Assembly: GCA_018648805.1 (NCBI GenBank) | Contig: JABGQM010000015.1 | Location: forward strand, 1-64,000 | DNA: 64,000 nucleotides | Direction: 5' to 3' | Source: Verrucomicrobiota bacterium | GTDB lineage: Bacteria; Verrucomicrobiota; Kiritimatiellia; UBA8416; JABMPJ01 | Shown here: positions 42,589 to 63,758 of the stretch, piece after piece | Layout: every line of letters begins with the position of its first letter | Position numbering within the stretch: the first letter of the stretch is position 1 | Notes under the pieces: model-generated | The model's database searches: none | What the model saw: the letters and a program-made list of their open reading frames with translations, nothing else | What the model was told of the DNA's origin: nothing | Position numbers and translations under genes: made by a program

Positions 42589-42629
42589 TGCGCAAACAGG
42601 ACAATCTCTGTGCGCGGAAACGGGTAGTC
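42589..42629 (+). promoter_or_regulatory. TGCGCA-22-TGCGCA element, copy 1 (yjbQ)
   Basis: TGCGCAAACAGG at 42589, then a second core TGCGCG at 42611, exactly 22 bp later, then CGGGTAGTC. The second core has one change from TGCGCA. It ends about 85 bases before the yjbQ start. Same architecture as copies at 50329, 59783 and 63710. Confidence 0.65.
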
Positions 42630-42713
42630 CCCTGCTCGGCTTTGTCATAGAGTATGGGTGCGATAGACGATCTGATTCTAACAGGAAGACAAACAGGAGA
42701 AGGGAAACCGCTC

Positions 42714-43214
42714 ATGAGTGTACATATTGGCAAAATCGAAGTGCAGTCGAAGGATCACATGCCACATTTTCACGAGATCACCGACGCGGTGAAGAAGATT
42801 GTGGCCGAATCCGGCATCCAGAACGGGCTGGTCACGGTCTATTCCCACCACACCACTTGCTCGGTCATTACCCAGGAGTGTTCACACGACCTGAACTTCT
42901 TTGGTCGCGAATACCTGCAGGTGGACCTGATCGAAACCATGGAGAAGCTGATTCCCACCTGCCGCACTGAGGGGCAGTATCACCATCCGGGCCCCAAGCA
43001 CATCGAGTTCGCGCTCACCTTCCCCGACGAGGAGCCCAAGGGCAGTCTGAACACCGACGCGCACCTTCGCTCCTGTTTCTTCGGCCGCTCCGAAAGCATC
43101 GTGCTTGAAAAGGGCAAACTCTCGCTGGGCGATTTCGGGTTCATCTATTTCATCGACTGGGACCAGGTCCGCGAACGCAAACGCGTCACAGAAGTGCTGA
43201 TCATGGGCGAATAG
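42714..43214 (+). CDS. YjbQ/UPF0047 family protein
   Basis: 166 residues from MSVHIGKIEVQS. SGIQNGLVTVYSHHTTCSVI is the UPF0047 signature, followed by GQYHHPGPKHIEF; the fold end is LSLGDFGFIYFIDWDQVRERKRV. E. coli YjbQ has weak thiamine-phosphate synthase activity, but the true role is unknown. AGGAGAAGGG precedes this ATG; the frame is open 20 codons further up. A TGCGCA element lies upstream. Confidence 0.85.
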   Translation: MSVHIGKIEVQSKDHMPHFHEITDAVKKIVAESGIQNGLVTVYSHHTTCSVITQECSHDLNFFGREYLQVDLIETMEKLIPTCRTEGQYHHPGPKHIEFALTFPDEEPKGSLNTDAHLRSCFFGRSESIVLEKGKLSLGDFGFIYFIDWDQVRERKRVTEVLIMGE

Positions 43215-43284
43215 ATCACGTAGTGGGTTGCTGTAGCGGAAGGGAAACAGCTCTTACGGTGACAGGTAAGGATGTGTGTGCATC

Positions 43285-44319
43285 ATGAGTGATGATCTTC
43301 AAGCGAGAGACAGGCAGATTTACGAGCGCGAGCTGCGTGGGTTTCTGCCCGCCCGGATCTTCGACGCCCACGTCCACTTTTTTGACGGGTCCTGCTTTGT
43401 TGCCGGCACATCGTTTCCTGCCAATCATCCCTACAGCAAAGTCGGCTCTACGTTTGGTCCTTCCGACTACCTCGCGTGGGCCGCGGACGCTCTGCCGGGC
43501 GTGGAGATCCATACGAATAGCTTCGGCCATCCGGGACCGGAGAGCGATCGCGACGCGTCAGCGGTCTACACCGGCAGCACTGCAGACAACCGGCGCTCTT
43601 ACGGACTGGCATTGGTTGCGCCCGCAGATTCGGCTGCGTGTGTGCGACGGCGAGTAGAACAGAACCAGCTTGTGGGCTTTAAGCCCTATCCAGATTTCGT
43701 TACCGGCAAGCCGGTGGGTGAGGTCACCGTGCACGACATGCTGCCGGCGGAACAGATGGCCGTGGCCGATGAGCTGGGGCTGGTTATCATGCTGCACATT
43801 CCGCGGCCCGGCCGACTCGCCGATCCGCTTAACCAGGTGCAGATGGTGGAGTTGTGCGAACGCTATCCCAACGCACGCATCATCTTTGCGCACATTGGAC
43901 GGGCCTATTTCCTCAGCAACGTGGTCGGTTTCCTCGATGGCATCGCCGCCTGTCCCAACGCCTACATCGACACCGCTATGATCAACCACGAAGGTGTCCT
44001 CGAGTACGCCTTCCGGAACTTCCCGCGCGACCGCATCCTCTTCGGCGCCGATGCCCCCTATGCGCTGGTGCGCGGCAAGTCCGTGGAGATCAACAACCAG
44101 TACGCCTACTTGGTGGGCGAAGACTACACTATGGGCACGGGCATCTATGACGCGGAGCATGCGGTGAGCTTCACGACCTTCTATTACGAACAGCTCCGGG
44201 GGATCAAGCTGGCCGCCGAACGTGCCGGCTTGGAGCGATGCGAGATCGAGGATTTCTTCTTCAACAATGCCGACCGGCTGTTCGGGTCGGTCGTGAGGGC
44301 GGCACGGCATGATATGTAA
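43285..44319 (+). CDS. Amidohydrolase-2 family metal-dependent hydrolase
   Basis: 344 residues. Metal-site residues of the TIM-barrel amidohydrolase-2 family are visible: FDAHVHFFDG near the start, MLHIPRPGR, IIFAHIGRAY and LFGADAPY. The family includes decarboxylases and lactonases acting on aromatic or sugar-derived acids. Adjacency to an isomerase-like and a Gfo/Idh gene suggests a sugar lactonase or related role. Its 3-prime end overlaps the next gene by 11 bases. Confidence 0.82.
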   Translation: MSDDLQARDRQIYERELRGFLPARIFDAHVHFFDGSCFVAGTSFPANHPYSKVGSTFGPSDYLAWAADALPGVEIHTNSFGHPGPESDRDASAVYTGSTADNRRSYGLALVAPADSAACVRRRVEQNQLVGFKPYPDFVTGKPVGEVTVHDMLPAEQMAVADELGLVIMLHIPRPGRLADPLNQVQMVELCERYPNARIIFAHIGRAYFLSNVVGFLDGIAACPNAYIDTAMINHEGVLEYAFRNFPRDRILFGADAPYALVRGKSVEINNQYAYLVGEDYTMGTGIYDAEHAVSFTTFYYEQLRGIKLAAERAGLERCEIEDFFFNNADRLFGSVVRAARHDM

Positions 44320-45772
44320 TGGCAATCCAACCATCGGCCTGTTGCCGCTTTACCTGGCGCTATACGACAAAGTGGCACCGGATTTGCGGTCGGAGTTTAA
44401 CGGTTTCATGGGCGACATTGTGGCCGGCCTCGAGGCACACGGAATCGCCGTGGGGATGACCGCGCCGATCTGTTGCGTTGCGGACGAGGTCGCGGCCGCC
44501 GTGCGGCAGTTCGAAGCCGATGGCATTGATGCCATCGTCACGCTGCATCTGGCCTACTCACCTTCCCTGGAGGCCGTGGATGCGCTGTGCGGCACGTCGC
44601 TGCCGATCGTCATGCTCGACACCACCATGGACGCGGCGTACGGCCTTGATGTTTCGCCTGACCGACTCATGGTGAACCACGGTATCCATGGTGTCATGGA
44701 TCTTGCCTGCATGCTGCGTCGGCGCGAGAAGCCCTTCGAGATTGTTGCCGGTCACTACAGTGACCCGGCCGTCCTGGAAAGAGCAGCGGATACGGTCCGC
44801 GCAAGCGCGGACCGTGAACTGACCCTACCGGGGACCACAGCGCATGCGGCCGCCGCTGCACCCGCCGAAGGTCCGCTGCGCAAGAATCGCGTCCTGCGCA
44901 TCGGCGATGCCTTTGCAGGCATGGGCGATTTTGCCGTCGAGCCGGACCTTCTGCGTGAGCGGTTCGGGATCGAGGTCGAACAGGTCGGACTGGAAGCTCT
45001 TGATGCAGCGGTCGAGGCCGTAGACGAAGCGGCCCTTGCCGCGGAGCTTGCGGCTGACACCGAGCGGTTCGATTGCGAACTGGACGAGGTCGTGCACCGT
45101 CAGTCCATCCGCGTGGGACTTGGATTGCGGCACTTGCTGGATGTCGGCGGCTATCACGGTTTCAGCGTCAACTTCCAGGCGTTCGACCGAACCGACCGGG
45201 CAGCGGACAGCATGCCGTTTCTTGAGATCTCGAAGGCCATGGCGCGGGGCATCGGGTACGCTGGCGAAGGGGATGTCCTGACCGCTGCACTGGTGGGCGC
45301 CCTGGCACGGGAGTTCGAGGCTGTGACGTTCACGGAAATCTTCTGTCCGGACTGGACCGGCAACAGCCTGTTCCTTTCGCACATGGGCGAGATCAGTCCC
45401 TCCGTCGCCGGCGATCGGCCCAGGATCTCTACCAAGCCGGCCTTCGACGGCAAGTCGGCAGCGACGGCTGTGCTGACCTGTGCGGTAAAGCCTGGTCCGG
45501 CGGTGTACGTCAATCTCGCGCCCGGGCCGAACGACAGCTTTTCCCTGATCATCGCCCCGGTCGAGGTATTGGCTGAGAACGGCGACCTCGATCCGGCCAT
45601 GCGCGACACGGTTCGCGCCTGGGTGCGGCCCACGTGCAAGGTGAGCGAATTCCTCGAAGCCTACTGCCAAGCCGGCGGCACACATCACAGCGCGCTGGTA
45701 CTGGGGGGTTGTGCTGACGCGGTGGTGGCGTTTGGGCGGAGGCTGGGGGTGGCCGTGTGTGTGATTGGGTAG
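44309..45772 (+). CDS. L-fucose/L-arabinose isomerase-like protein
   Basis: 487 residues. The start, PTIGLLPLYLALYDKVAPDLR, and the pattern GIDAIVTLHLAYSPS, then RIGDAFAGMGDFAV, SVNFQAFD and FTEIFCPDWTGNSLFLSHMGE resemble the fucose/arabinose isomerase fold, in which Glu, Asp and His bind Mn. The match is to the broad superfamily, not to true FucI or AraA, so the substrate is uncertain. It overlaps the amidohydrolase gene. Confidence 0.72.
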   Translation: MICNGNPTIGLLPLYLALYDKVAPDLRSEFNGFMGDIVAGLEAHGIAVGMTAPICCVADEVAAAVRQFEADGIDAIVTLHLAYSPSLEAVDALCGTSLPIVMLDTTMDAAYGLDVSPDRLMVNHGIHGVMDLACMLRRREKPFEIVAGHYSDPAVLERAADTVRASADRELTLPGTTAHAAAAAPAEGPLRKNRVLRIGDAFAGMGDFAVEPDLLRERFGIEVEQVGLEALDAAVEAVDEAALAAELAADTERFDCELDEVVHRQSIRVGLGLRHLLDVGGYHGFSVNFQAFDRTDRAADSMPFLEISKAMARGIGYAGEGDVLTAALVGALAREFEAVTFTEIFCPDWTGNSLFLSHMGEISPSVAGDRPRISTKPAFDGKSAATAVLTCAVKPGPAVYVNLAPGPNDSFSLIIAPVEVLAENGDLDPAMRDTVRAWVRPTCKVSEFLEAYCQAGGTHHSALVLGGCADAVVAFGRRLGVAVCVIG

Positions 45773-45812
45773 AGGAAGACAAGGGTAAAGATTACGGTAA
45801 AGACGAGGGAGC
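45773..45812. repeat. Single arm of the GGTAAAGATTAC word family
   Basis: GAAGACAAGGGTAAAGATTA followed by CGGTAAAGACGAGGG, between the isomerase-like and Gfo/Idh genes, only one arm present. Complete palindromes of this family are at 51633-51712 and 62035-62118. Confidence 0.6.
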
Positions 45813-45819
45813 ACAAGAA

Positions 45820-46950: not shown

Positions 46951-46964
46951 TGGGGTAGGGGGCA

Positions 46965-47050
46965 GAGATTAAGGCGAAAGATTAGGGCAAAAGATTAAGG
47001 TTGCCTGCTATTCGCCCCTAATCTTTCGCCTTAATCTTTCGCCCTAATCT
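46965..47050. repeat. Palindromic element, AAAGATTAGGGC word family
   Basis: Left arm AGATTAAGGCGAAAGATTAG then GGCAAAAGATTAAGG; right arm CCTAATCTTTCGCCTTAATC then TTTCGCCCTAATCT, near-perfect inverses around a short loop. It occupies the gap between the Gfo/Idh and URO-D-like genes. Confidence 0.8.
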
Positions 47051-48557: not shown

Positions 48558-49805
48558 CTACCAGGTGAAATCCGGGAGGGGGAATTCCCATGCGTCGCGG
48601 ATTTCGATCATGCGCTGCTCGTGGATTCCCAGGCCTGCGCAGATGGATTCCCATGTGATGGCGGCGGTATGAACCGCCTGGAGAATGTTGTCGAGCTCCC
48701 GCCGGTTGATGCCGAAGGTGTCCGCTAGCGGCTCCAGGTCGGCTCGCCCAATCTGTTCGCGCTTGCCGCGTAGCGGCATCTGCCGATACAACCCGTTGCC
48801 GATCCCCGGTCGCGAAAACATCACATCGTAGGCCGGCGAGAGGGTCCAGTTCCCAGCCTTGTCCATGGTGAATGCGTGATTCTTGCTGTGGTCATCGCGC
48901 ACACCAAACGAGATGTTAAAAACCATACGGAGGAAGGCCTCGTACACACAGCGCTGATCCCGCGTGACCCTCAGTACGGCGCGCAGAAACTCCTCGTAGT
49001 CCGTATTGCCGGCATGTGAATCGCGATTGAGCATGCCGGCCAGTGTGTGACAGTGCAGTCGTTCGCTGGGCAGCCAGTCGAACCGCTTCACCGCGAAGTG
49101 CCGGACCGCATCGGGTCCGGCGCTGACGAGGCGCGATTCCGGCACGTCCATACCCACGCTTTCGGCCAGCAGGTAATAGGCCTTTTCAACCGGACCATAC
49201 TGGCGGAGGGGGTCAGTTTCGATCTTCAGGATCCAAGGCTCATAACCCGGTGGGGGAAGCGTCTTGCCGTACCACACTCGCTCGGGATCATCGGGCGCTA
49301 TCGCGATGCGCTGCTTCGGTCTGGCACCGCCGGTAGATGCGCCTGATTCGATGACCTCGGGAAGAATGTCCCCCATGTGACCCTCAACCGCAGCGCGGGC
49401 TGAACGCTCCGCCTCAACCAGATCCATCTGCTCGAGCTTCTGCATGTCAGTGTCGGATTGATCCGGGCCGTAGGTCAGGGCTCCCCACCCGCGACGGCCG
49501 ACATAGCACAGACGCTCAAGTACACCGACTGTTTCAGGGTTCATTCCGGCACGCCGGAAACGCTCATCCATGAGCATTTGGCCCCACGAGTCAGGCAAAC
49601 TATCTGCGAAGACCCCGAACAGGCCGGAAAACGGCCGGCTCTCACGGTTCCATTGGACTTCGGGGTCCCATGTCATTTGCAGCGGGGATACAGGGCAGCC
49701 GGTTGCCAACCATGCCGGGTCGAACTGGAACGCAATTCCAGGTACGCCGGCATCGTCGGCCAGGAGCCCGACGCGCTGGTCCCAAAGATAGACTTCTGTT
49801 CTCAT
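48558..49805 (-). CDS. HipA-family Ser/Thr kinase toxin
   Basis: 415 residues. The HipA N-terminal domain (VYLWDQRVGLLADD, FQFDPAWLATGCPVSPLQM, FGVFADSLPDSWG) and C-terminal kinase domain (AVKRFDWLPSERLHCHTLAGML, then NISFGVRDDHSKNHAFTMDK with the catalytic Asp, and SPAYDVMFSRPG) are complete. HipA phosphorylates glutamyl-tRNA synthetase or other targets, giving persistence. It overlaps the antitoxin gene by four bases, in the usual order. Confidence 0.92.
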   Translation of the reverse strand: MRTEVYLWDQRVGLLADDAGVPGIAFQFDPAWLATGCPVSPLQMTWDPEVQWNRESRPFSGLFGVFADSLPDSWGQMLMDERFRRAGMNPETVGVLERLCYVGRRGWGALTYGPDQSDTDMQKLEQMDLVEAERSARAAVEGHMGDILPEVIESGASTGGARPKQRIAIAPDDPERVWYGKTLPPPGYEPWILKIETDPLRQYGPVEKAYYLLAESVGMDVPESRLVSAGPDAVRHFAVKRFDWLPSERLHCHTLAGMLNRDSHAGNTDYEEFLRAVLRVTRDQRCVYEAFLRMVFNISFGVRDDHSKNHAFTMDKAGNWTLSPAYDVMFSRPGIGNGLYRQMPLRGKREQIGRADLEPLADTFGINRRELDNILQAVHTAAITWESICAGLGIHEQRMIEIRDAWEFPLPDFTW

Positions 49806-50101
49806 GGACGTCGCTCACGTACGCGCTGTGGGGGCGGTCCCGGTACAGGGCTGTACAGATCTCGAGGGGGGGCGACGGTGAGGAGACTCTCCAGCCCTGA
49901 TCGCTCGCCGAGGGCGCGAAGCACGGCGATAAACGAACTCAGCCTGACCTCTCCCGTCCGCTCAAGCGTCCGCAGTGTATTGACGTGAATACCGGCCTTC
50001 GCGGCCAGCGTCTTCTGCGCCATTCGCTTCTCGATACGGGTTCTCCTGACCCGGGCGCCCAGTTCTTGAGCCAATTCGCGATCTGTCTCGAACAACAACA
50101 T
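49802..50101 (-). CDS. HipB-like XRE-family antitoxin
   Basis: 99 residues from MLLFETDRELAQELGARVRRTR. The helix-turn-helix is RMAQKTLAAKAGIHVNTLRTLERTGEVRLSSFIAVLRAL. It should bind HipA and repress its own operon. The frame is open 44 codons further up, but the shorter start fits the family and the promoter below. If that promoter is right, the mRNA is leaderless. Confidence 0.85.
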   Translation of the reverse strand: MLLFETDRELAQELGARVRRTRIEKRMAQKTLAAKAGIHVNTLRTLERTGEVRLSSFIAVLRALGERSGLESLLTVAPPRDLYSPVPGPPPQRVRERRP

Positions 50102-50108
50102 ACTAGTG

Positions 50109-50136
50109 GTTATAGCAGATATGACATTGTAAGCAA
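50109..50136 (-). promoter_or_regulatory. Promoter of the hipBA module
   Basis: On the minus strand TTGCTT (50131-50136) and TATAAC (50109-50114) are 16 bases apart. Transcription would begin near 50101-50102, at the hipB start codon. The A/T-rich stretch here contrasts with the GC-rich surroundings. Confidence 0.5.
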
Positions 50137-50328
50137 CATTAAAATATGGATTACGAGAGAGAAATGAATATGTCTCGCATTCGTAGCCCCTGCACTTGTT
50201 CCGCTCTGGCGAAGGCGGATCCATCGTCCCCAAATTCGGTCTCTGGGCATTTCGGATTTCACTGGGTATATTCCGCCACAGGTATTGCCATATGGCGGGT
50301 CAACATGTTTCTTCTCCTCTCCCTCCCG

Positions 50329-50380
50329 TGCGCAAACAGGACAAAACCTGTGCGCAATCATGGGTATCTTTCGCTTGCCG
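50329..50380 (+). promoter_or_regulatory. TGCGCA-22-TGCGCA element, copy 2 (SGNH hydrolase)
   Basis: TGCGCA at 50329 and 50351, the central part reading AACAGGACAAAACCTG, then TGGGTATCTTTCGCTTGCCG. The 32 bp at 50307-50338 leading into the first core are repeated exactly at 51832-51863. It lies about 90 bases before the SGNH gene and, with weak hairpins near 50197-50225, is the main content of the 340-bp gap after hipB. Confidence 0.7.
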
Positions 50381-50441
50381 GATTCGGGACAATCGAGGCC
50401 ACGAATTAAGGAAGCGGTCTGGCCCTTTGGTCTGATATATC

Positions 50442-51853: not shown

Positions 51854-51885
51854 TGCGCAAACATGGGTAGTCTTTGGCTTGCCGG
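51854..51885 (+). promoter_or_regulatory. TGCGCA element with one core only (giant surface protein)
   Basis: TGCGCAAACATGGGTAGTCT then TTGGCTTGCCGG: one core is present and the 22-bp unit between cores is missing, as if deleted between the direct repeats. The tail after the core matches the other copies. It lies about 105 bases upstream of the giant gene. Confidence 0.6.
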
Positions 51886-51972
51886 ATTTGGGAAAATGGA
51901 TGCAACGATTAAGGAAGATGTCTGTTGTTTGGCCTGTTTGGGCCAAGAAACGCTGCAGTAGGAGCATAATCG

Positions 51973-54900
51973 ATGAAGAAGACAATGAGCTATCTGATGA
52001 CATTTCTGGTACTGGCGGCTGCGAGCACTTCGTTCGCCTCGACGGTCAACCTGGGCACGCTGACGTCGTTCACGGGCGGCGATGCTGGCGAGGGCATTGA
52101 CCTGACCGGGAACATCGTCTACGCCTTCAACCTGGGGCCAGGATCGGCCGAGACGGTACAGGGGGTGACCTTCGCCGCCGCGCCCAATACAGCTCCGCCT
52201 GCAGGGCTCACCACCACTGCTGGATACCAGATCTACTATCCGGACGCACAAGGTGGATTGACCGGTGCCAATTACGGTTCCACTGCCAACGACGATGCCC
52301 TGGAAGCGATTATTAACAACATCTGGTACGACCTTACCGCTGGCTGCACGTTCGACCTGGCCGTCGTGTCGGGCACCCAGTACAAGCTGCAGCTCATTTT
52401 GCAAGAGGCCTATAGGCCCAGCCAGGGAACAGCGGGTCGCAATTTTGATGTTTCGGTTGAGACCGCCTCGCCCTCGACGCTGAGCCTGGCCGTCGACGAT
52501 CTGGTGCTCTCGATGGAAACGAACGGCGACGCGGAGGCCGGACCTGACCAGGGCCTGGTCTACAGCTACACCTTCACGGCCGCCGACACCTCCTTCCGGG
52601 TGGGGTTGGTAGGTGTGGGTGGCAGCCTGGTGATCATCGGTGGCGTGACGCTGGAGGAATTGCCTGCCCCCGCCTCTCCGGCTGTCACGCTGGATGGCAG
52701 CGAGACGGGCGGCAGCGTTGCCAGTACCGCTCCATTGGCCACGCAGGTTGGGGTCTTGAGCATGGTCAACACCAATCCCGTTGGCTTTGCCTATTCGCTG
52801 CACGCGAGCGGTGACATGACGCACTTCGATATTCCTGTCGGCACAAGTAACCTGGTCACTGCCGCGGCCCTCACTGCCAGTTCGTACGACATCGTCGTGT
52901 TGGCGACCAACGCAAGCGACGGTTTCTGGACGACCAACAGCTTGACGATTGACGTCGATTTTCCTGACGTGGCCACGGGCGGCAATTCAACGAATGATAT
53001 CGGCGGCTACCGGATCCACACCTTCACGAGTAGCGGAAGCTTTAATGTCTTGGCTGGCGGCAATGTCGAGGTGCTGGTCGTCGCTGGCGGCGGCGGCGGT
53101 GGCGCTTATTACTACGCTGGCGGCGGTGGCGCTGGCGGCTTTGTGACGAACAATGCCTACTCTGTTCTTGTGAACAACTACACGGTCACGGTCGGCGCGG
53201 GCGGCCCCGGCGCGGCGGCGGGAAGCGGCTCCAGTGGCGGCGACTCAATCTTCGATACGATCACCGCATACGGCGGCGGCGGCGGTGGCGGTGCCACAAC
53301 CGGGTATACCGGGACGCCCCCCGGTTCCGGCGGTTCCGGTGGCGGGGCAAGCCACATGTTGGGTTCATCCGGCGGAACGGCAACTCCGGCCGGCCAGGGC
53401 AATGACGGAGGGGCCAGCAATCCCGCCGACGGCGGCGGCGGTGGTGGCGGCGCCGGCGCTCCAGGCGAGGTCGCAAATGCGGCAGGTACTCAAAACGGCG
53501 GCGATGGTGGCGCGGGACTGTCTAGCTCGATTTCGGGCTCCCCGCAGGACTACGCGGGTGGCGGCGGCGGCGGCGCCATGGGGTTCCCGTCAGTCGGCAC
53601 ACCCGGTGCCGGCGGCAGCAATGTCGGCGGTACTGGCGGTTTCGGTTCGACGGTCCCGACGGCGGGGACCGCGAACACCGGCGGCGGTGGAGGCGGTGCC
53701 AGCGGGTATCCGGCCCCCACCCACGGCGGGGCTTCCGGCGGATCAGGCATCGTGATCGTGCGCTATGTCTTTCCACCTGTGCCGGCTGGCCCCGCTGACC
53801 CCGCCGTGACATTGGACGGCAGCGAGACGGCTGACAGCATTGCCACCAACGCGTCCGTGGGCACGCTGGTTGGGGTGTTGAGTATGGCCGACACCAATTC
53901 CGCCGGTTTTGCCTATGCGTTGGACGCGGGCGACACGAGTTACTTCGACATCGTCAACACGAGCAACCTGGTGACCAAGCTGGCACTCGATGCCGCATCG
54001 TATTCGCTCGACATCGAGGGCACCAAGGGCGGCTTCTCGGTCACCAACAGCTTCACGATCACGGTCACGGACCCCGTCACCGTTCTCCTGTCCAGCGCCA
54101 CGGTGCTCGCCGGTGAGCCGGCGGACACGACGGTAGGGGCCTTGAGCATGTCCAACGCCGTCACGGGCGACTTCGTGTTTTCGCTGCACTCGAGCGGCGA
54201 CACGAACACGTTCAAGATTTCAGACGGCACCAACCTGACTACGAAGGTGCAGATGCCCGCCTCCGCGGGCAGCTACGACATCGTCGTCCTGGCGACCAAT
54301 GCCACCGACGGGTTCTGGGTCACCAACGGCCTGACGATTGACGTGCTCGGCCTTGTCACGGCCACGGGTGGCGACACGACCCAGGATATTGACGGCTACC
54401 GAATCCACACCTTCACGAACGGCGGGACGCTTACGGTCACGGCCGGCGGCGAGGTCGAGATGCTGATCGTCGGTGGCGGCGGCGCAGGCGGAACGAGCGG
54501 CGGTGCGGGCGGTGGCGCGGGTGGCATGGTTACCGGAACAACGATTGTCGCCGTCTCTGGCCACGCGGTGGTTGTGGGTGGCGGCGGCGCCGCCGTCGGC
54601 AACAACGGCACCAATAGCAGTTTCGCAGGCTTCACCGGAATCGGTGGTGGTGGCGGCGGCAGTGGCTCGGGTGACGGGGGCGACGGTGGCTGTGGCGGCG
54701 GCGGCGGTGGCCTTGGTGTCTCGAGTGGCGGTATTGGGAGTCAGGGCTTCAATGGCGGCATGGGCGTGAGCTTCGGCGCTGGCGGCGGCGGTGGCGCGTC
54801 GGAACCGGGAGTGAATGGCACGGGCGGGAATGTCTCGGGTCGTGGCGGCGATGGCCTGGCGTCGGCACTCTCTGGAACGTCGACCTATTACGCCCAGGGC

Positions 54901-55404
54901 GGGGCCGGATATTTCGCGGCGAACCCTCCCAATAAAGGCGGCGGCGGGGATTCCATCAACGGGGGAGTCGGCGAGCCGGGTGACCCGAACACCGGTGGCG
55001 GTGGCGGCGCGGACGGCGGCGGCGGCTTCTGGCTCCGGTGGATCTGGCATCGTGATCGTGCGCTATGCCTTGCCGTCCCCACCGGAAATGAACGTCACGG
55101 GCAACGGAGTGAGCATTGCCGACGGCGAAACCGCAACGGCCACATCAAATCACACCGATTTCGCGACTGCCATTGTGGGTGTCAGCACGGTGGTGCGCAC
55201 CTTTACGATCGAAAATACCGACGACGGTACGCTGTCGCTGACCGGTACGCCGGTGGTCGCGATCTCGGGTACCCATTCGAACGACTTCACGGTGACGGTC
55301 AATCCGACCAATTCGATTGCGGGCATGACCTCGACGACCTTCCAGGTGACCTTCGATCCGCTGGCTGCGGGAGCGCGCACGGCTATGGTGAGCATCGCCA
55401 ATGA
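51973..55404 (+). CDS. Giant modular secreted protein, 5-prime part (frameshifted)
   Basis: The open frame has 1143 codons, but only the first ~1017 belong to the protein; beyond about 55024 the translation is a shifted shadow. Signal peptide at 1-24; a malectin-like domain to about 235; cadherin-like units beginning PAVTLDGSETGG (235) and PAVTLDGSETADS (610), with a further one near 700; glycine-rich domains at about 333-600 and 793 onward, each opening DIGGYRIHTFT or similar and closing GIVIVRY. The second glycine-rich domain is cut in its GGC tract at 55015-55026, and its GIVIVRY ending appears in the other frame. A surface-exposed adhesin or matrix protein is likely. Confidence 0.7.
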   Translation: MKKTMSYLMTFLVLAAASTSFASTVNLGTLTSFTGGDAGEGIDLTGNIVYAFNLGPGSAETVQGVTFAAAPNTAPPAGLTTTAGYQIYYPDAQGGLTGANYGSTANDDALEAIINNIWYDLTAGCTFDLAVVSGTQYKLQLILQEAYRPSQGTAGRNFDVSVETASPSTLSLAVDDLVLSMETNGDAEAGPDQGLVYSYTFTAADTSFRVGLVGVGGSLVIIGGVTLEELPAPASPAVTLDGSETGGSVASTAPLATQVGVLSMVNTNPVGFAYSLHASGDMTHFDIPVGTSNLVTAAALTASSYDIVVLATNASDGFWTTNSLTIDVDFPDVATGGNSTNDIGGYRIHTFTSSGSFNVLAGGNVEVLVVAGGGGGGAYYYAGGGGAGGFVTNNAYSVLVNNYTVTVGAGGPGAAAGSGSSGGDSIFDTITAYGGGGGGGATTGYTGTPPGSGGSGGGASHMLGSSGGTATPAGQGNDGGASNPADGGGGGGGAGAPGEVANAAGTQNGGDGGAGLSSSISGSPQDYAGGGGGGAMGFPSVGTPGAGGSNVGGTGGFGSTVPTAGTANTGGGGGGASGYPAPTHGGASGGSGIVIVRYVFPPVPAGPADPAVTLDGSETADSIATNASVGTLVGVLSMADTNSAGFAYALDAGDTSYFDIVNTSNLVTKLALDAASYSLDIEGTKGGFSVTNSFTITVTDPVTVLLSSATVLAGEPADTTVGALSMSNAVTGDFVFSLHSSGDTNTFKISDGTNLTTKVQMPASAGSYDIVVLATNATDGFWVTNGLTIDVLGLVTATGGDTTQDIDGYRIHTFTNGGTLTVTAGGEVEMLIVGGGGAGGTSGGAGGGAGGMVTGTTIVAVSGHAVVVGGGGAAVGNNGTNSSFAGFTGIGGGGGGSGSGDGGDGGCGGGGGGLGVSSGGIGSQGFNGGMGVSFGAGGGGGASEPGVNGTGGNVSGRGGDGLASALSGTSTYYAQGGAGYFAANPPNKGGGGDSINGGVGEPGDPNTGGGGGADGGGGFWLRWIWHRDRALCLAVPTGNERHGQRSEHCRRRNRNGHIKSHRFRDCHCGCQHGGAHLYDRKYRRRYAVADRYAGGRDLGYPFERLHGDGQSDQFDCGHDLDDLPGDLRSAGCGSAHGYGEHRQ

Positions 55405-58400
55405 CGACGCCGACGAGGATCCCTACAACTTCACGATTGAAGGCCTCGGCCTGGCTGCGGTTGCGGAAATCAATGTCACGGGCGACGGGGTGGATATCCC
55501 CGACGATGACACGACGCCGGACTCGGCCGATCATACCGATTTCGGTGGTACGCCTGAGGCTGGCGGGCAGCTGGTGCGGACGTTCACGGTTGAAAACAGC
55601 GGAACCGTGGCCCTGTCGCTGACCGGCACACCGGTCGTTGCGGTCTCGGGTACCCATTCGAACGACTTCACGGTGACGCTGGCTCCCACCAATTCGGTTG
55701 CATCGGGCACGTCGACGACCTTCCAGGTGACCTTCGATCCCTCGGCCCTGGGGCTGCGTACGGCGACGCTGAGCATCGCCAATGACGATCCGAACGAGGA
55801 TCCCTATGACTTCGCGATTCAGGGAACGGGGCATGATTTGGTTGTGGCCACGGGCGGCGACACGACGCAGGACATTGGCGGCTACCGGATCCACACCTTC
55901 CTGAGTGGCGGAACGCTAGATATCACAGCCGGTGGCGTTGTCGACGTGCTGGTCGTGGCTGGCGGTGGTGGTGGCGGCGGAACCATTGGTGGTGGCGGTG
56001 GCGCCGGTGGCTTCATCTCCCACAATGCGTACCTTGTTGTCAGCAACGGCTACACGGTGACGGTCGGCACCGGCGGCGGCGGCGGCGCCGCCGCCAGCAG
56101 CCTGCAAGGGACGAGTGGAACGAATTCGTCATTCGGTGCGTTGATCGCTTATGGTGGCGGCGGTGGTGGTGGATGGGCTGCGAATCCCGGGATCAGCGGC
56201 GGCTCCGGCGGTGGGTCTGCTAACTCAGCCCCAGTAGGATCGGCAACAAACGGCCAGGGCAATGTCGCCGGAATCGGGGACGGTAATGGCGGTGGTGGCG
56301 GCGGCGGTGCCGGCAGCGATGGGAGCGCGGGGACAAACGCACCGGTGAGCCTTGCTGGCCAAGGCGGTGCAGGGCTGGCGAGTGATCTATCTGGATCGAC
56401 CGTCTATTATGCGGGCGGAGGCGGTGGCGGCGCACGAAACCCAAATAGTGACGCTGGGGCGGGCGGCATAGGGGGCGGAGGCAGTGGATCCGACACAACG
56501 TTCGGTGGAGCCGCGGATCCAAACACTGGTGGCGGTGGTGGTGGTGGCGCCTATAATGCCGGTAATCAAGCTGGCGGCGCCGGCGGCTCCGGCATCGTGA
56601 TCGTGCGCTATCTTCGGTTACCCGTACCGGAAATAAACGTCACGGGCAACGAACTGGATATTCCCGACGGCGAAACGGCAACGGCCACATCTAATGACAC
56701 CGATTTCGGGACTGCTATTGTGGGTATCAGCACGGTGGTGCACACCTTTACGATCGAAAACACCGACAACGGCACGCTGTCGCTGACCGGTACGCCGGTG
56801 GTCGCGATCTCGGGTACCCATTCGAACGACTTCACGGTGACGGTCAATCCGACCAATTCGATTGCGGGCATGACCTCGACGACCTTCCAGGTGACCTTTG
56901 ATCCGTTGGCTGCGGGAGCGCGGACGGGGACGGTGAGCATCGCCAATAACGATGCCGATGAGAATCCCTACGACTTCATGATTGAAGGCCTGGGCGTGCC
57001 CCCGGAACCTGAGATGAATCTCACAGGCAATGGCGAGGATATTGCCGACAGTGACAGCTCACCGACCCCGGCCGATCACACTGATTTTGAGTCGGCTGTC
57101 GTGACCTCCGGCACGGTGGTGCGGACGTTCACCATCGAAAACACGGGCGACGGCACGCTGTCGCTCACAGGTGCACCGGTGGTCGTGGTGTCGGGGACGC
57201 ATTCGAACGATTTCACGGTGTCGCAGGTTCCGACCAATTCGATTGCCGCAGGCACGTCGACCACCTTCCAGGTGACCTTCGATCCGTCGGACACCGGAAC
57301 GCGCACGGCGACGCTCAGTATCGCTAACGATGACAGCGACGAGGATCCCTACGACTTTGCGATCGAGGGGCTTGGCACGGCGGGCGCGGTACCGGAGATC
57401 AGTGTGTCGGGCAATGGGCAGGGGATCGCCGACGGCGACACCACGCCGACCTCGGATGATCATACCTACTTCGGCGTTGCGGCGGTGAGTGGGGACACGG
57501 TGGCGCGGACCTACACGATCGAGAACATCGGTCTCGGTGCGCTGTCGCTGACCGGTACGTCGCTCGTGGTGGTCTCGGGTACGCATTCGGGCGACTTCAC
57601 GGTGTCGCAGGATCCGGCCAACTCGGTTGCGGCGAGTGGCTCGACCACCTTCGAGGTGACATTCGATCCGTTGGCCGCGGGAACACGCACGGCCACCCTC
57701 AGCATCGCCAATAACGATGCCGACGAGGATCCCTACAACTTCGCGATTCAGGGATATGGCGACGCCGGGGTCCTCACCTCCTATGACCCATTCCCGTCGG
57801 ATCCCAATATCGCGGGCGCCTGGACGGAGTACGTTTACTGGACCGCAGACCAATTCACGCCCACCTGGAACAGCATTGACAAGGATCTGGACCTGTCGTT
57901 AACGGCAGGTGGTATAGGCGGGGCGAGCGGACTGTACCGCAGCGGCACCTCGCGCCTGCCCACCGATACCGTGACACTGACGGTCACATCACTTGGCAGG
58001 ACCAGTGGTGCCTGGGGGTTTGTGGGGGCAATGATCTCCGCCGTCGCTCAGCCGGGCTATACAACCACGGCCGACGATACATACTCGTTGCTGATGATAC
58101 CCGAAAGCGCCACGCATTTTCATTACGAGGTGCGTAAGACGTATCTAGACGGTACCCCCCCGGGCTACGCGGACTTCGTCCTGACCAACGGCCCCACCAC
58201 GGCGTTCACCGGTCCGTACACGAACGAGATCTCACGTGTCGGCGACCACTACGAGTTCAGAGCCAATGGCGCTTTGCTCTACACAACGGCCACCCCGGCG
58301 GTGGGCGACTTCTATGACCTCGCGGCCAGGGACTCCATGGCCTACTACCAGATCGTGATGGGTGCGAACGGCTCCACGACCGCGACGGTGGACGACTTCG

Positions 58401-59704
58401 GTGTGCCCGTCCCGATTGTCCCGGCCGTCACATTGGACGGTAGTGCCTCCCTGGACAGCATCGCGGGCAATGCGCCCGTGGGCACGTTGGTTGGGCCGTT
58501 GAGCATGATCAACACCAACCCCGCCGGGTTCGCCTATTCGCTGGATGCGGGCGACACGACGTACTTCGACATTCCCGGCGGAACCAGCAACCTGCTGGTC
58601 AAGGCGGCGCTCGGCGCTGGTCCGTACGCCCTCAAGATCGTGGGGACGAAGGGCGGTTTCTCGGTGACCAACGACTTCGTGATCACGGTTGCGGCGGATA
58701 TCAGCGTCGACCTGTCACACACCAACATGACGGCCAATGCTTCTGTGAGCACGCAGGTCGGGATCTTGAGCATGGTGGACGCTGTGTCGCCCGAGCAGTT
58801 CGCGTTCTCGCTGCATGCAAGCGGCGATACGACGCACTTCGACATTCCAGTCGGCACGAACACGCTGGTCACGGATGCGCCTCTCTCCATTGGCACCTAC
58901 GACATCGTCATCCTGGCGACCAACGCCACCGACGGGTTCTGGGTCACGAACGCCTTCACGATCGCCGTGGCGGGGACAGATCCGTTGCCGGCCGCGGTGC
59001 AGTACTGGCGCTTCGATGCTGGCAGCGGCAGTATCGCCTTCAATAGCGTCCCCGGTGGCAACACAGGCACATTGGTGTACTCACCCACCTGGATCAACAC
59101 CGGCCTTGAGCCGAAGCTGACCACACGCGACGCGCTGAATGGGCCGTCGACGGCCGCGCTGGATCTTGACCCGGGAGGCACGGCTGACTACGTCGATGGC
59201 GGCAACATCAGTTTGACCTCCACCGGCGGTGGTGGCGAGGTGACCGTCTCGATGTGGCTCAATCCCGATTCACTCGCCAGCGAGGCGCGGCTATTCACCC
59301 AGTCTACCGTCAGTGGCGCGACGAGTCAGCAAGGAACGACTGACGTGCTGGTCGATGGTCGTATCGCTGTCTGGAATGGCGGCGGCTACGTGTATCCTGC
59401 GCCGGTGGGCTCAGTGATTGTGGGCGTCTGGCAGCATCTTGCCTTTGTGTGGGATAGCGGACAGGTAACAGCTTACGTCGACGGTGTGCAGAAGTCGACC
59501 GCGACGGCGAACTTCGAGTTCGGCGCGGCAAACGGCGATTTCGGAATTGCCGCCGACCTGATCGGCCAGTATGGCGCCGGCATTGATGGCAAGATCGACG
59601 ACGTTGCCATCTTCGACGTCGCCCTGAACCAGAGCCAGGTCGTCGCATTGGCCAATGGTGAAGCACCGCCTGTGCCACAGGGAACCCTGTTTTTGTTCAG
59701 GTAG
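55025..59704 (+). CDS. Giant modular secreted protein, 3-prime part (other frame)
   Basis: About 1559 residues in the +1 frame, directly continuing the gene at 51973; together about 2576 residues. Domains in order: end of a glycine-rich domain (GSGGSGIVIVRYALP); two choice-of-anchor-D (ASPM/SPD-2/Hydin-like) repeats of about 125 residues with the SLTGTPVVAVSGTHSNDF core; a third glycine-rich domain (about 55845-56620); three more anchor-D repeats; a jelly-roll-like domain shared with the 59927 protein (57775-58420); two cadherin-like units; a LamG domain (about 58990-59660); and a terminal PQGTLFLFR. The frame has an earlier ATG at 54815, but homology begins only at 55025. Confidence 0.7.
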   Translation, partial: ASGSGGSGIVIVRYALPSPPEMNVTGNGVSIADGETATATSNHTDFATAIVGVSTVVRTFTIENTDDGTLSLTGTPVVAISGTHSNDFTVTVNPTNSIAGMTSTTFQVTFDPLAAGARTAMVSIANDDADEDPYNFTIEGLGLAAVAEINVTGDGVDIPDDDTTPDSADHTDFGGTPEAGGQLVRTFTVENSGTVALSLTGTPVVAVSGTHSNDFTVTLAPTNSVASGTSTTFQVTFDPSALGLRTATLSIANDDPNEDPYDFAIQGTGHDLVVATGGDTTQDIGGYRIHTFLSGGTLDITAGGVVDVLVVAGGGGGGGTIGGGGGAGGFISHNAYLVVSNGYTVTVGTGGGGGAAASSLQGTSGTNSSFGALIAYGGGGGGGWAANPGISGGSGGGSANSAPVGSATNGQGNVAGIGDGNGGGGGGGAGSDGSAGTNAPVSLAGQGGAGLASDLSGSTVYYAGGGGGGARNPNSDAGAGGIGGGGSGSDTTFGGAADPNTGGGGGGGAYNAGNQAGGAGGSGIVIVRYLRLPVPEINVTGNELDIPDGETATATSNDTDFGTAIVGISTVVHTFTIENTDNGTLSLTGTPVVAISGTHSNDFTVTVNPTNSIAGMTSTTFQVTFDPLAAGARTGTVSIANNDADENPYDFMIEGLGVPPEPEMNLTGNGEDIADSDSSPTPADHTDFESAVVTSGTVVRTFTIENTGDGTLSLTGAPVVVVSGTHSNDFTVSQVPTNSIAAGTSTTFQVTFDPSDTGTRTATLSIANDDSDEDPYDFAIEGLGTAGAVPEISVSGNGQGIADGDTTPTSDDHTYFGVAAVSGDTVARTYTIENIGLGALSLTGTSLVVVSGTHSGDFTVSQDPANSVAASGSTTFEVTFDPLAAGTRTATLSIANNDADEDPYNFAIQGYGDAGVLTSYDPFPSDPNIAGAWTEYVYWTADQFTPTWNSIDKDLDLSLTAGGIGGASGLYRSGTSRLPTDTVTLTVTSLGRTSGAWGFVGAMISAVAQPGYTTTADDTYSLLMIPESATHFHYEVRKTYLDGTPPGYADFVLTNGPTTAFTGPYTNEISRVGDHYEFRANGALLYTTATPAVGDFYDLAARDSMAYYQIVMGANGSTTATVDDFGVPVPIVPAVTLDGSASLDSIAGNAPVGTLVGPLSMINTNPAGFAYSLDAGDTTYFDIPGGTSNLLVKAALGAGPYALKIVGTKGGFSVTNDFVITVAADISVDLSHTNMTANASVSTQVGILSMVDAVSPEQFAFSLHASGDTTHFDIPVGTNTLVTDAPLSIGTYDIVILATNATDGFWVTNAFTIAVAGTDPLPAAVQYWRFDAGSGSIAFNSVPGGNTGTLVYSPTWINTGLEPKLTTRDALNGPSTAALDLDPGGTADYVDGGNISLTSTGGGGEVTVSMWLNPDSLASEARLFTQSTVSGATSQQGTTDVLVDGRIAVWNGGGYVYPAPVGSVIVGVWQHLAFVWDSGQVTAYVDGVQKSTATANFEFGAANGDFGIAADLIGQYGAGIDGKIDDVAIFDVALNQSQVVALANGEAPPVPQGTLFLFR

Positions 59705-59782
59705 GCAGTAATCACTGGCATAGCTGGATGGCGTGATCAGCGGCCACCACCGTGCTTGCCCCGGGGGGCTATAGTGGTCCCC

Positions 59783-59834
59783 TGCGCAAACAGGAAAAAG
59801 TTTGTGCGCAAAAGTGGGTAGTCTGCCGCTTGCC
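59783..59834 (+). promoter_or_regulatory. TGCGCA-22-TGCGCA element, copy 3 (second modular protein)
   Basis: TGCGCA at 59783 and at 59805, with CAGGAAAAAG in between, then AAGTGGGTAGTCTGCCGC and TTGCC. It ends about 92 bases before the start at 59927. Nothing else is recognised in the 222-bp gap. Confidence 0.7.
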
Positions 59835-59926
59835 ATCCTTCGCATAATGGGCGGCACGGTTGGGAAGGAACACTTGAGCGAAGAGCGGTGACATGATGAT
59901 GTCCTGCAAAATGCGGAGATGAGAAG

Positions 59927-61984
59927 ATGAAAAATCACACAATGATCAGAAGATTAGTCAACGTCGTGGCCATCGCTGTTATGGCGACTGCAAACGTGTC
60001 GATCGCGCAAGTCATCAATGTCGACATCCAGGGGACACAGTATGGCAATGTCGCTCCAGGTATTGCAGACTACACGGGAGCCAGTGCGAATGGCCCGATT
60101 GTGTCGGGTACGACATGGAACTACTTCAATGTAGGTGGCACTGTACCAAACGGACAGTCCCTATTGAATCTGAATGACGACAGCGGGGCGACGACCACGG
60201 TGGACGTCGCGTTCGGCACTGGCTGGCTCGGATCGTTCGCAGACGGCGCACCCAATAACCTGCAGGGGGATCGAACATTCATCAATACTGGAGTCACCGG
60301 AACTTTCACGATCAGCGGGCTTGACATCAGCAAGGACTACAACCTCGCATTGATTACCGGGGTCAGCAGCGGCTTCGGAACGGACTTTACCGCGGGCGGG
60401 ACGACGAAGACTGCAACCGCTGTCGCCGGCGCTGGCGCTAACGCCAACGGGCCGCTGCTCACGTTTACCAACGGAGTGTCGCATGTGCTGTTCAGCGGAC
60501 TCGACGGCAGCACCGGCAGCATCACGTTTTCAGTGACCGATTCGGCTGTCGGCGTTAACGGCGTCTTGGCCGGACTGCAAATTGAGGTGGCGGGGGCCGA
60601 CCTGGACGATCCGGTCATCACCACCCTCGATCCGGCCAATGGCGCTACGGTCGGTGTAGCACTGGATGCGAATCTCGTGGTGACCTTCGACGAGTCCGTC
60701 GCCTTTGGCACCGGCGACATCACGCTGCGGACGAGCGGCGGCGGTCTGGTGGAGGCCTTTGATGTGACCAGCTCGCCCAATCTTTCGCTGGCCGGCACGA
60801 CGGTTACGATCGATCCCACCAACAACCTCGTCGGGGGCAACAGTTACTACGTGGAGATTGCCGCGACCGCGATTGACGATCTCTCTGGTAACAGCTTTGC
60901 GGGAATCAGCGGCTCCACGACCTGGAGCTTCAGCCCCGACACCACAGCACCCTCCATCGACACCCTCGTCCCTGCCAATGGTGCGCCTGACGCCTCATAC
61001 CTCAGCAGCCTCGTCATCACCTTCGATGAAAATGTGCAGAAGGGAACCGGCAACATCGTGATCAGGCAAGTCAGCGGTGGGACGGTGGTAGATACCATCG
61101 ATGTGATCAGCGGCAATGTGACGGTGAGTGGAGCCCAGGTGACGATCACGTCTGGAGCAGGCCTTCCTCAGCTAACCTCCTTGTATGTCGAAATCGATGC
61201 CACCGCCATCGATGATCTCGCCGGCAACAGCTTCGCGGGGATCAGTGGCTCCGGAACATGGAGTTTCACGACAGCAGGAATTGTACGCTTTCACGACTTC
61301 AACACGGACCCCGGCCTCTCGACGGGTTGGGATGCCTATAAGTACTATCTCAAAAACAGCCCGGACACTCTCACAGAGTATGCGACGTGGAGTGGTAGCG
61401 ACCTCAGTTTCACCTCTCCTGACAGCGGGGCAACCCCAGCTACCGACTGGGCCGAGGGGATCTCTCTCGTGGAGGCCACGCGGACCCCGACCGAGCCAGT
61501 GACCCTGACGGTTAAGGCTCTTGCTGGGACCAGCGGCAGCTGGGGGTTTGTGGGGCTGATGATCTCCGTGGTCGCCGAAGCGAGTTATGTCGTCTCTGGC
61601 GACGACACCTACTCGCTTGTTCTTATACCCGAGAGCGCCACGCATTTTCATTACGAGGTGCGCAAGGCCTATCTGGACGGCACCGCCCCCTCCTACGTGG
61701 ACTTCGTACTGACCAACGGCCCCTCCACTGAGTTTACCGGTCCCTATGTAATAGATATCGTGCGCAACGGTGATGGGAACTATGAGTTCCTGGCCGACGG
61801 GGATCTGCTCTACACGTCGGGTGACGTTGCAGCCGATACCTATGATGCTTCCGTCAAAGACTCGATGGTCTACTACCAGATCCTGTTTGGCGCTCAAAGA
61901 GCCCAGACCGCCACGGTCGACGATTTTGGCGTGCCGTATGTAGCGCCCCCGCAGCCCTCCCGGACGCTGTTCATAATCCGGTGA
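59927..61984 (+). CDS. Secreted modular protein with SbsA Ig-like domains
   Basis: 685 residues. Signal peptide (about 1-27); an N-terminal beta-rich domain to about 220; two Big_5/SbsA Ig-like domains beginning PVITTLDPANGATVGVALDA and APSIDTLVPANGAPDASYLS, each with an ATAIDDLSGNSFAGISGS- or ATAIDDLAGNSFAGISGS-type end; a ~215-residue jelly-roll-like domain nearly matching that of the giant protein (shared IPESATHFHYEVRK, DFVLTNGP and TATVDDFGVP); and a C-terminus PSRTLFIIR. No catalytic motif is visible. Likely a surface or matrix protein made together with, or alternately to, the giant one. Confidence 0.75.
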   Translation: MKNHTMIRRLVNVVAIAVMATANVSIAQVINVDIQGTQYGNVAPGIADYTGASANGPIVSGTTWNYFNVGGTVPNGQSLLNLNDDSGATTTVDVAFGTGWLGSFADGAPNNLQGDRTFINTGVTGTFTISGLDISKDYNLALITGVSSGFGTDFTAGGTTKTATAVAGAGANANGPLLTFTNGVSHVLFSGLDGSTGSITFSVTDSAVGVNGVLAGLQIEVAGADLDDPVITTLDPANGATVGVALDANLVVTFDESVAFGTGDITLRTSGGGLVEAFDVTSSPNLSLAGTTVTIDPTNNLVGGNSYYVEIAATAIDDLSGNSFAGISGSTTWSFSPDTTAPSIDTLVPANGAPDASYLSSLVITFDENVQKGTGNIVIRQVSGGTVVDTIDVISGNVTVSGAQVTITSGAGLPQLTSLYVEIDATAIDDLAGNSFAGISGSGTWSFTTAGIVRFHDFNTDPGLSTGWDAYKYYLKNSPDTLTEYATWSGSDLSFTSPDSGATPATDWAEGISLVEATRTPTEPVTLTVKALAGTSGSWGFVGLMISVVAEASYVVSGDDTYSLVLIPESATHFHYEVRKAYLDGTAPSYVDFVLTNGPSTEFTGPYVIDIVRNGDGNYEFLADGDLLYTSGDVAADTYDASVKDSMVYYQILFGAQRAQTATVDDFGVPYVAPPQPSRTLFIIR

Positions 61985-62034
61985 AAGGCGAGAGGGACGG
62001 CAGGCGATAGGCGTAATGCATAGCGCCGCCACAT

Positions 62035-62118
62035 CACCCTCGTCTTTGCCGTAATCTTTACCCTTGTCTTCTCAGACGCAGGGGAAGACAACGGTAAAGA
62101 TTAGGGTAAAGATGAAGG
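62035..62118. repeat. Palindromic element, GGTAAAGATTAGGG word family, copy 2
   Basis: Left arm CACCCTCGTCTTTGCCGTAA then TCTTTACCCTTGTCTTC; right arm GAAGACAACGGTAAAGATTA then GGGTAAAGATGAAGG. It lies between the modular protein and the convergent ATPase gene. Confidence 0.8.
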
Positions 62119-62190
62119 AGGGGCGCACTGCAACTCGCTGGTTCAGGGCGAATACGCGGAGGCGGTGGAGGCGTTTGGGCGTACGCTTGG

Positions 62191-63504
62191 CTATGCCTCC
62201 AACAGCCACTCCATAACATTGATAACATCAATGCCTGCGACGGCCCTCGGGCGCTGGGTCAGAACCAGTCGTCGTGTCTGTGCGAATGCAGGTTCCGTCA
62301 GGTTCGCGAGAGACCTGATCTCACGTGCCAGGGTGATCTCGTCATCCATCTGACACGTGACTTGAATCGCAAGCTCTGGCTCTTCGAAGGTTCTGTAGGC
62401 GATGAAGTCGACTTCATAGTCGGTCCTGGGATGCCTGTGGTAGCGCACCTGGTAGCCACGTCGCTTTAGTTCCCAGTAAACAACCGCCTCCAATGCTCTC
62501 TGAGGCTGGAACTGCGTAGGAAAGGCAACTGCATTGGCTAGAGCCCAGTCTGCGCAATAGACCTTCCGCGGGTTCTGGTTCATCTTTGCCTGCGAAGCCG
62601 CATAGATGGGAAGGAAGTCGAAGAGATAGTTCTCCTCGGCCAGATGCGCCAGGGCATAGAGCTGTCTTTTATCGGTCGCCACCTGCATGCCCGCCAAGGC
62701 ATCCAGCATCCTCTTGTGCGTGTAGGGTCCCGTATTGTTCTGTAGAAGCCGGAAGATATAGTGCTTCAGAAGAACGGGATCCACCCCCTTGCTTTTCTCG
62801 AGGAAGTCGCTGGCCACAATCGTTGAACAATAGGTCTTGAGCAGCAGTTCCCGCTCCCGGTTGGTCGTGGTGTTATGTAGCCCCGGGAAGGCTCCCCACC
62901 GCAAGTAGAGCTCAAACAACTGCTCAACAATGGCCCTGCCTTTGGGTGACCATTTTGCAGAATGGGTATCGGCCCCGTGCCACCGGCAGAACTCCGTGAA
63001 TGACAAGGGATAGATATGCTCGGCAACCGACTTGCCTCGAAGCTGTCTATCGACTTTCTCCGGCTCGAGATCGGCACTGGACCCGGTAACCAATATGCGA
63101 CTGTTCCGTTTTCGCAGCAACCGCAGTACATAACCTTCCCAGCCTTCGATCTTATGAATCTCATCGAACACATAGAGAATCGGTTTCGCATGTATGTCCG
63201 GGGCAATCTGTAGCAGAGCTTCATCGATCTGCGAGAGATGATGGACCGCGAACGTCATGAGGCTTTCATCGTCAAAGTGCAGGTAGCAGACCTGATCAAG
63301 ACTGCTCAACCTGCCGGACTGCAATTCCTGATCGATCACCTGATAGGTGGCATAGGTCTTCCCCGCTTTGCGCACTCCGACGAGTGTTGTGACCATGTCT
63401 TCGTAGAAGTTGGCGTCAAGAATGCGTTCACGGTAAGAGGGAATGCCATCCTCCCTGAACTCCTGGAGCCTCGACCGTAGTAGCGTATGAAAGCTCTCAC
63501 TCAT
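62191..63504 (-). CDS. AAA ATPase with DUF4143 (archaeal-type ATPase family)
   Basis: 437 residues from MSESFHTLLRSRLQEF. Walker A reads GVRKAGKTYATYQ; Walker B and sensor are ILYVFDEIHKIEGW and ILVTGSSADL. The DUF4143 C-terminal part has PLSFTEFCRWHG, YLRWGAFPGLHN and, near the end, DYEVDFIA, a nuclease-like strand. Family members occur widely in bacteria and archaea with no settled function. GAGGAG precedes this ATG; the frame is open 78 codons upstream without support. Confidence 0.88.
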   Translation of the reverse strand: MSESFHTLLRSRLQEFREDGIPSYRERILDANFYEDMVTTLVGVRKAGKTYATYQVIDQELQSGRLSSLDQVCYLHFDDESLMTFAVHHLSQIDEALLQIAPDIHAKPILYVFDEIHKIEGWEGYVLRLLRKRNSRILVTGSSADLEPEKVDRQLRGKSVAEHIYPLSFTEFCRWHGADTHSAKWSPKGRAIVEQLFELYLRWGAFPGLHNTTTNRERELLLKTYCSTIVASDFLEKSKGVDPVLLKHYIFRLLQNNTGPYTHKRMLDALAGMQVATDKRQLYALAHLAEENYLFDFLPIYAASQAKMNQNPRKVYCADWALANAVAFPTQFQPQRALEAVVYWELKRRGYQVRYHRHPRTDYEVDFIAYRTFEEPELAIQVTCQMDDEITLAREIRSLANLTEPAFAQTRRLVLTQRPRAVAGIDVINVMEWLLEA

Positions 63505-63709
63505 AAGAATCACTCCTCTGGATGCTTCTATTAGATCACACATGAGGTGGAATTCAAGATCTATTATCCGCAAATAGGAGCGCGACAAGTACCTATTGTA
63601 GCAGTGGCGACCCAACCTGGCCCGCGGTGAAAAGCCTGTGCCTCCTCCCCAGCGGACAGCCCGGACGTCACGTCCGGCATCCGCTGAGACTGACCTCCGC
63701 CGCTCCCCG

Positions 63710-63758
63710 TGCGCAAACAGGACAAAACCTGTGCGCAAATGGTGGTAGGCTGTTTGCC
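63710..63758 (+). promoter_or_regulatory. TGCGCA-22-TGCGCA element, copy 4 (last gene)
   Basis: TGCGCA at 63710 and 63732, with AACAGGACAAAACCTG between, then ATGGTGGTAGGCTGTTTGCC. It ends about 72 bases before the start at 63831. A compact hairpin, CCGGACG with CGTCCGG, lies upstream at 63661-63677. These are the contents of the 326-bp gap after the ATPase gene. Confidence 0.7.

Follow-up and report, generated by a model that had tools for sequence, protein, structure and literature searches.

The standard arrangement for dimeric activators of the AraC/XylS family consists of two direct half-sites 21-22 bp apart and ending at -35: the XylS site reads TGCA-N6-GGNTA-N6-TGCA-N6-GGNTA, and MtlR needs two 15-bp blocks, from -72 to -58 and from -50 to -36, that is, 22 bp apart (PMC4514859). 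Here we describe a repeated upstream element with paired TGCGCA cores in the first 64,000 bases (the window) of the 78,892-base contig JABGQM010000015.1 from a Verrucomicrobiota bacterium of the class Kiritimatiellia (assembly GCA_018648805.1; 4.85 Mb in 138 contigs). The element has the geometry of XylS/Pm and MtlR/PmtlE, with same-orientation TGCGCA halves near -72 and -50, about two helical turns apart, and a second half whose TGC...GGTA is reminiscent of XylS. This shared geometry marks it, by layout, as a putative AraC/XylS-type operator, a known form, contrary to an earlier note on this DNA that had found no described motif like it. The sequence itself differs from that of AraC I1-I2 at araBAD, and XylS and MtlR, which have a different N-terminal domain from the regulator considered here, are not known orthologues of the latter.

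We propose, with a probability of about 0.9, that a XylR-like AraC/XylS-type activator, encoded on the minus strand at 75624-76820 of the same contig, beyond the window at the end of a gene cluster, uses the element as its operator, and that the element and a sigma70-type promoter make up a single unit in a sugar-responsive regulon. The proposal draws on the layout and orientation of the element, its fixed offsets, its restriction to one cluster, its conservation with target genes and its association with a regulator family, all at the level of sequence. The regulator combines a Peripla_BP_3 domain with a C-terminal HTH_18/HTH_AraC module, and its best solved relatives are the Escherichia coli XylR structures 4FE4/4FE7 (E-value about 1e-44, with almost the entire chain aligned). 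E. coli XylR has the same order of sensor and AraC domains and is likewise linked to sugar-use genes of the FGGY kinase, isomerase-like and transport kinds; the two proteins are nevertheless only distantly similar, and the comparison made here is one between proteins. Operator sequence, regulon, regulator family and spread through the class appear to be undescribed, the layout being already known, and we regard the novelty as modest.

Copies of the element and their anatomy

The window contains four full copies and one half copy, and two further full copies lie past its end. The first full copy (42589..42627, with cores at 42589-42594 and 42611-42616, the latter reading TGCGCG, and GGTAG at 42623-42627; E-value 1.1e-10) precedes a gene for a YjbQ protein that starts at 42714. 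The others are found before a secreted GDSL-like protein (50329..50367, cores at 50329 and 50351, gene start 50442; E-value 5.1e-12), a secreted Ig-like-domain protein (59783..59821, cores at 59783 and 59805, gene start 59927; E-value 1.6e-13) and a hexapeptide-repeat acyltransferase (63710..63748, cores at 63710 and 63732, gene start 63831; E-value 2.6e-13). Beyond the window, the copies at 67965 and 70948 precede a GH43 protein and a GFO/IDH/MocA oxidoreductase, respectively. Every full copy on the contig is on the plus strand ahead of a plus-strand gene, so that the random placement relative to genes that the earlier note had named as its refutation is not what we find. The exact 22-bp interval between cores in the four window copies, and the position of the second core 91-122 bp before the start codon, were both read correctly in that note: the distances are 103, 91, 122 and 99 bp in the order above, and 77 and 75 bp for the two copies beyond the window.

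The half copy (51854..51870, plus strand), which retains the promoter-proximal half-site only, lies before a large glycine-rich secreted protein (start 51973). As the note had it, this is a one-core form, and it corresponds to the 50329 copy minus 22 bp, or one repeat unit, with an identical upstream flank, CTTCTCCTCTCCCTCCCG, and similar downstream sequence; recombination between the direct repeats would explain the loss. A shortened half copy, TGCGCAAACAGGACTGTGCACC, is also seen at 67131 (L006 7131), 834 bp before the 67965 copy and ahead of two small open reading frames, and is probably a decayed operator.

The consensus can be written as TGCGCAAACA(G)GA-N7-TG-TGCGCAAA-N5-GGTAG. Across 20 copies from five genomes, from which we built a 45-position profile, the invariant letters are TGCGCA-ACA-GA, then TGTGCGC and then GTA, with near-invariant A, A, G and G around these blocks; the half-sites are spaced by 22 bp in 20 of 21 copies. 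Half-site 2 joins TGCGCA to an invariant GTA about one turn away, and half-site 1 consists of TGCGCAAACA and GA without a GGTAG. Two details of the earlier description had to be revised: the conserved tail, given there as GGGTAGTCT, is GGTAG, and the GCTTGCC-like sequence counted as part of the unit occurs only in some promoters that resemble copies of one another.

Within the organism's own genome, full matches of the profile are confined to this contig (E-values 1e-10 to 1e-14 per genome), and everything elsewhere in the 4.85 Mb is at noise level. A search for TGCGCA-N15-17-TGCGCR likewise returned chance pairs elsewhere and the shared inter-core sequence on this contig only. The regularity that the note had judged too great for chance therefore holds for the extended sequence and not for the bare core pair: TGCGC-N17-TGCGC with one mismatch allowed occurs 14 times in the window against 16.3 in shuffles, showing no excess, and the claim accordingly has to rest on the extended element.

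TGCGCA is its own reverse complement, and the pair could in principle be bound as an inverted repeat in the LacI/GalR style, by this or another regulator and mainly as a repressor site. Outer CAGG...CCTG matches in the 50329 and 63710 copies, the pair at G016:C1, which reads TTACGCAA...TTGCGTAA, and a regulator sensor domain of the LacI-type periplasmic-binding-protein group would all fit such an arrangement. With a palindromic core, however, it is the flanks that decide the register, and in the 20 copies the two halves match in direct register at positions -1 (G), +6 and +7 (A, A) and +11 (G), with similarities of 0.84, 0.80, 0.70 and 0.75, whereas in inverted register they match at +7 alone. 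The element is therefore a direct repeat. Upstream of distant homologues of the regulator, moreover, both halves carry TGCGCAAA on one and the same strand, the linked regulator has a DNA-binding domain of the AraC and not the LacI type, and a site at -72/-50 with GGTAG on the -35 occupies the position of an activator. Taken together, these observations make an inverted repressor site unlikely.

A predicted promoter at a fixed distance

A feature absent from the earlier description is a sigma70-type -10 hexamer (TAnnnT, CATAAT, TATTAT and similar) that begins 24-25 nt after the GTA in nearly every copy. On the plus strand of the window it reads TAGAGT (42648..42653), GACAAT (50388..50393), CATAAT (59843..59848) and TAGGCT (63770..63775) downstream of the four full copies, and a weaker GAAAAT (51892..51897) is read at the same offset downstream of the one-core copy. 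The mean score of these hexamers in 11 non-redundant copies is 5.15, compared with -0.06 +/- 0.46 at the best offset in shuffles, none of 2000 of which reached 5.15.

With the last base of the hexamer set as -7, and hence a transcription start placed from sequence, the two cores fall at about -72 and -50, and GGTAG spans roughly -38 to -34, that is, the -35, so that the proximal half-site abuts or overlaps the latter. By reading, no TTGACA-like -35 was seen at that position. Start codons lie 25-72 bp downstream of the predicted start, which also makes 42714 the more likely start of YjbQ, as an ATG at 42654 would precede transcription.

This fixed spacing bears on two further explanations. An RNA element, such as an attenuator or hairpin in the 5' leader, might be read into the partial inverted symmetry of two copies, but the arms are unpaired in most copies, and a fixed -10 about 60 bp downstream of core 1 places the element upstream of the transcript; we consider the chance of such a leader structure close to negligible. 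An alternative sigma factor promoter, of the sigma54 or extracytoplasmic function (ECF) type, is equally improbable in our estimate: GGGTAG...GCTTGCC superficially resembles a two-block promoter, yet the distance between the blocks varies, GCTTGCC is missing from many copies, the 20-copy profile has neither a constant second block nor a -24/-12 pattern, and the constant downstream block is instead the sigma70-type TAnnnT.

We favor a mechanism in which a sugar, probably a pentose or similar, would bind the sensor domain of the XylR-like regulator, whose dimer would then occupy both direct half-sites, near -72 and -50, along the same face of the helix. The promoter has a -10 and lacks a good -35; GGTAG closes the proximal half-site at roughly -38 to -34, so that the bound activator would replace -35 recognition and recruit RNA polymerase, acting by activation rather than repression. 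Dimer binding would thereby turn on at least six promoters, those of the secreted proteins, YjbQ, the acyltransferase, the GH43 protein and the oxidoreductase.

The proposed regulator and its sites across the class

A related site is found in the upstream region of the regulator gene itself, at 76887 and oriented away from the gene; its first 25 bases are identical to those of the site at the regulator orthologue in JASLPY010000008 (hereafter JASLPY), which is 85% identical to the regulator described here. The presence of such a site in the regulator's own promoter suggests autoregulation. Together with the gene-oriented copies and the fixed -10, this linkage supports the suggestion of the earlier note that the element may be the operator-promoter unit of a regulon, bound at tandem sites by a dimer, and the presence of a similar site upstream of a third of regulator homologues points the same way.

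For the latter comparison we took 91 regulator homologues (33-100% identity) and searched the 300 bp before each of them for a TGCGCAAA-N-TGCGCAAA pair, with a cut-off of at least 14.5 of 16 and spacing left free from 12 to 33. The pair was found upstream of 33 of the 91, both halves on the same strand, compared with 0.2 expected from dinucleotide shuffles and none in either reversed sequences or coding stretches. Despite the free spacing, only 22 (23 cases), 23 (8) and 24 (2) occur, and 32 of the 33 pairs point away from the regulator gene (orientation 32:1). For 30 non-redundant homologue loci, a -10 scores best when placed 37-38 nt past core 2, which matches the window copies; the mean score is 5.74, versus -0.21 +/- 0.24 in shuffles, none of 1000 of which reached it. 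Regulators with as little as about 40% identity still have the pair upstream, and a site is present in 32 of the 70 homologues whose first recognition helix contains SRR and in 1 of the 21 others, a contrast that shared ancestry may inflate. These data argue for a strong link, as judged from sequence, between the element and this regulator family.

The extended motif was also sought in other genomes. Scanning the motif plus GGTAG over 84,980 species genomes, where records of the organism's own genome may be left out, gave matches in four assemblies only (JASLPY, JADHWE, JAPKCZ and JABGOW), of which three are labelled Kiritimatiellia/Kiritimatiellae and one Verrucomicrobia. Over 144 relatives, full profile matches were restricted to the organism's own genome and to G004, G018, G022 (JASLPY) and G024, that is, the same four assemblies; all genomes are metagenome assemblies or drafts. 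JASLPY carries eight copies, which span 39 kb and share a single orientation, as well as the site upstream of its regulator. Downstream genes recur between genomes (GFO/IDH/MocA oxidoreductases in four, secreted proteins in three, FGGY kinases in two and GH43 proteins in two), and in front of the JASLPY counterpart of the gene following the one-core copy the second core is likewise damaged, being one base short (37255).

The recurrence of these genes also bears on whether the element could be a repeat that has been dispersed by duplication along with promoters and has no specific regulator. Long flanks are indeed shared between 50329 and 51854 here and between 16905 and 33024 in JASLPY, and all copies are on one contig. 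Most copies, however, have in common only the operator and the -10 position and not the intervening or surrounding sequence, copies precede corresponding genes in different families, and the pair persists upstream of distantly related regulator genes, making a dispersed repeat very improbable.

Several findings weigh against assigning the element to the XylR-like activator. At 76887 the second half-site is degenerate (TTCTGT), and the site is weak when taken alone (E-value 0.045). Several JASLPY copies have no clear gene downstream, JADHWE (71% complete) and JAPKCZ (83% complete) yielded no close orthologue of the regulator, and JABGOW has only two C-terminal regulator fragments, at contig ends. 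No strong pair lies upstream of 58 of the 91 homologues, where either the half-site differs or the site lies elsewhere; three regulators at 33-36% identity (G003:C97, G018:C423 and G094:C292) have no recognisable TGCGCA pair upstream.

On a broader scale, Kiritimatiellia may possess a class-wide, strongly expanded XylR-like family, with dozens of candidates in many genomes, each tied to its own local sugar-gene island, and with a common promoter design in which TGCGCAAA halves 22-24 bp apart would position an activator replacing the -35 ahead of a fixed-offset -10. Changes in the first recognition helix (SRR versus others) would then set the half-site sequence. We give this extension even odds; if true, a regulator-to-operator code for polysaccharide use could be read from Kiritimatiellia genomes. 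Regulation in Kiritimatiellota is almost unstudied: our literature search returned a single paper that mentions both the group and a regulon, no Kiritimatiellota paper with AraC and transcriptional regulator and none linking such a motif to the group, and a search for TGCGCAAA gave unrelated titles only among the matches listed. The predicted regulator-operator pair and defined regulon, along with a promoter layout seen in 30 non-redundant loci across the class, offer a way to predict, in uncultured degraders of polysaccharides, sets of genes that share a response to one sugar.

Three further observations concern the related assemblies. On the JASLPY contig (G022:C519) a truncated second regulator, 82% identical over residues 154-398, lies at 9437-10171 (L066), with 34 kb separating it from the complete copy. 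An operator at 3847 of this contig precedes a sulfatase-like gene, whose start at 4092 is 223 bp away from core 2, and another at 42413 precedes a gene at 42549 that seems to begin like a URO-D-type methyltransferase; these genes suggest that sulfated-polysaccharide use is part of the regulon in this relative. A core pattern at 17194 of G006:C14, before a cupin-like gene, was not counted, as it lacks GGTAG and the contig carries no regulator homologue.

Gene surroundings

The genes around the regulator include those for an L-arabinose-isomerase-like (AraA-like) protein, an FGGY kinase closest to xylulokinase (XylB-like), a triose-phosphate isomerase, a KpsF/GutQ-like SIS protein, a sodium:solute symporter, the GH43 protein, GFO/IDH/MocA oxidoreductases and two YjbQ proteins, and from their sequences are assigned to a sugar-use cluster of the pentose type. 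This would place the large secreted proteins and YjbQ, whose roles are not otherwise known, in a sugar-use regulon.

Among the secreted proteins, the overlapping plus-strand open reading frames 51973-55404 and 54815-59704 look like a single product of about 2,500 amino acids, split within a glycine-rich repeat by a frameshift near 55,050-55,100. From there on, unrelated sequence is read in the first frame and the domain pattern carries on in the second, and a comparable protein in L081 reads through; the split may reflect an assembly error or a broken gene. In the organism's own genome the strict DNA pattern for TLFxxR followed by a stop (TAA or TGA) was found only in the 61984 case, and similar short C-terminal tails are shared by regulon secreted proteins (GTLFLFR, RTLFIIR, GSMFLFK and GMLFFVR, at 59704 and 61984 of the window and 2065 and 5766 of L081), possibly as a sorting signal.

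Two minus-strand loci are interspersed with these genes. At 62191-63738 an AAA ATPase-like gene of the DUF4143 kind has a listed reading frame that overlaps the 63710 operator, its likely start lying downstream of the operator. Within the sugar cluster, 48558-50233 encodes a HipA-like kinase, with a small helix-turn-helix-like protein next to it, by appearance a HipBA-type toxin-antitoxin pair.

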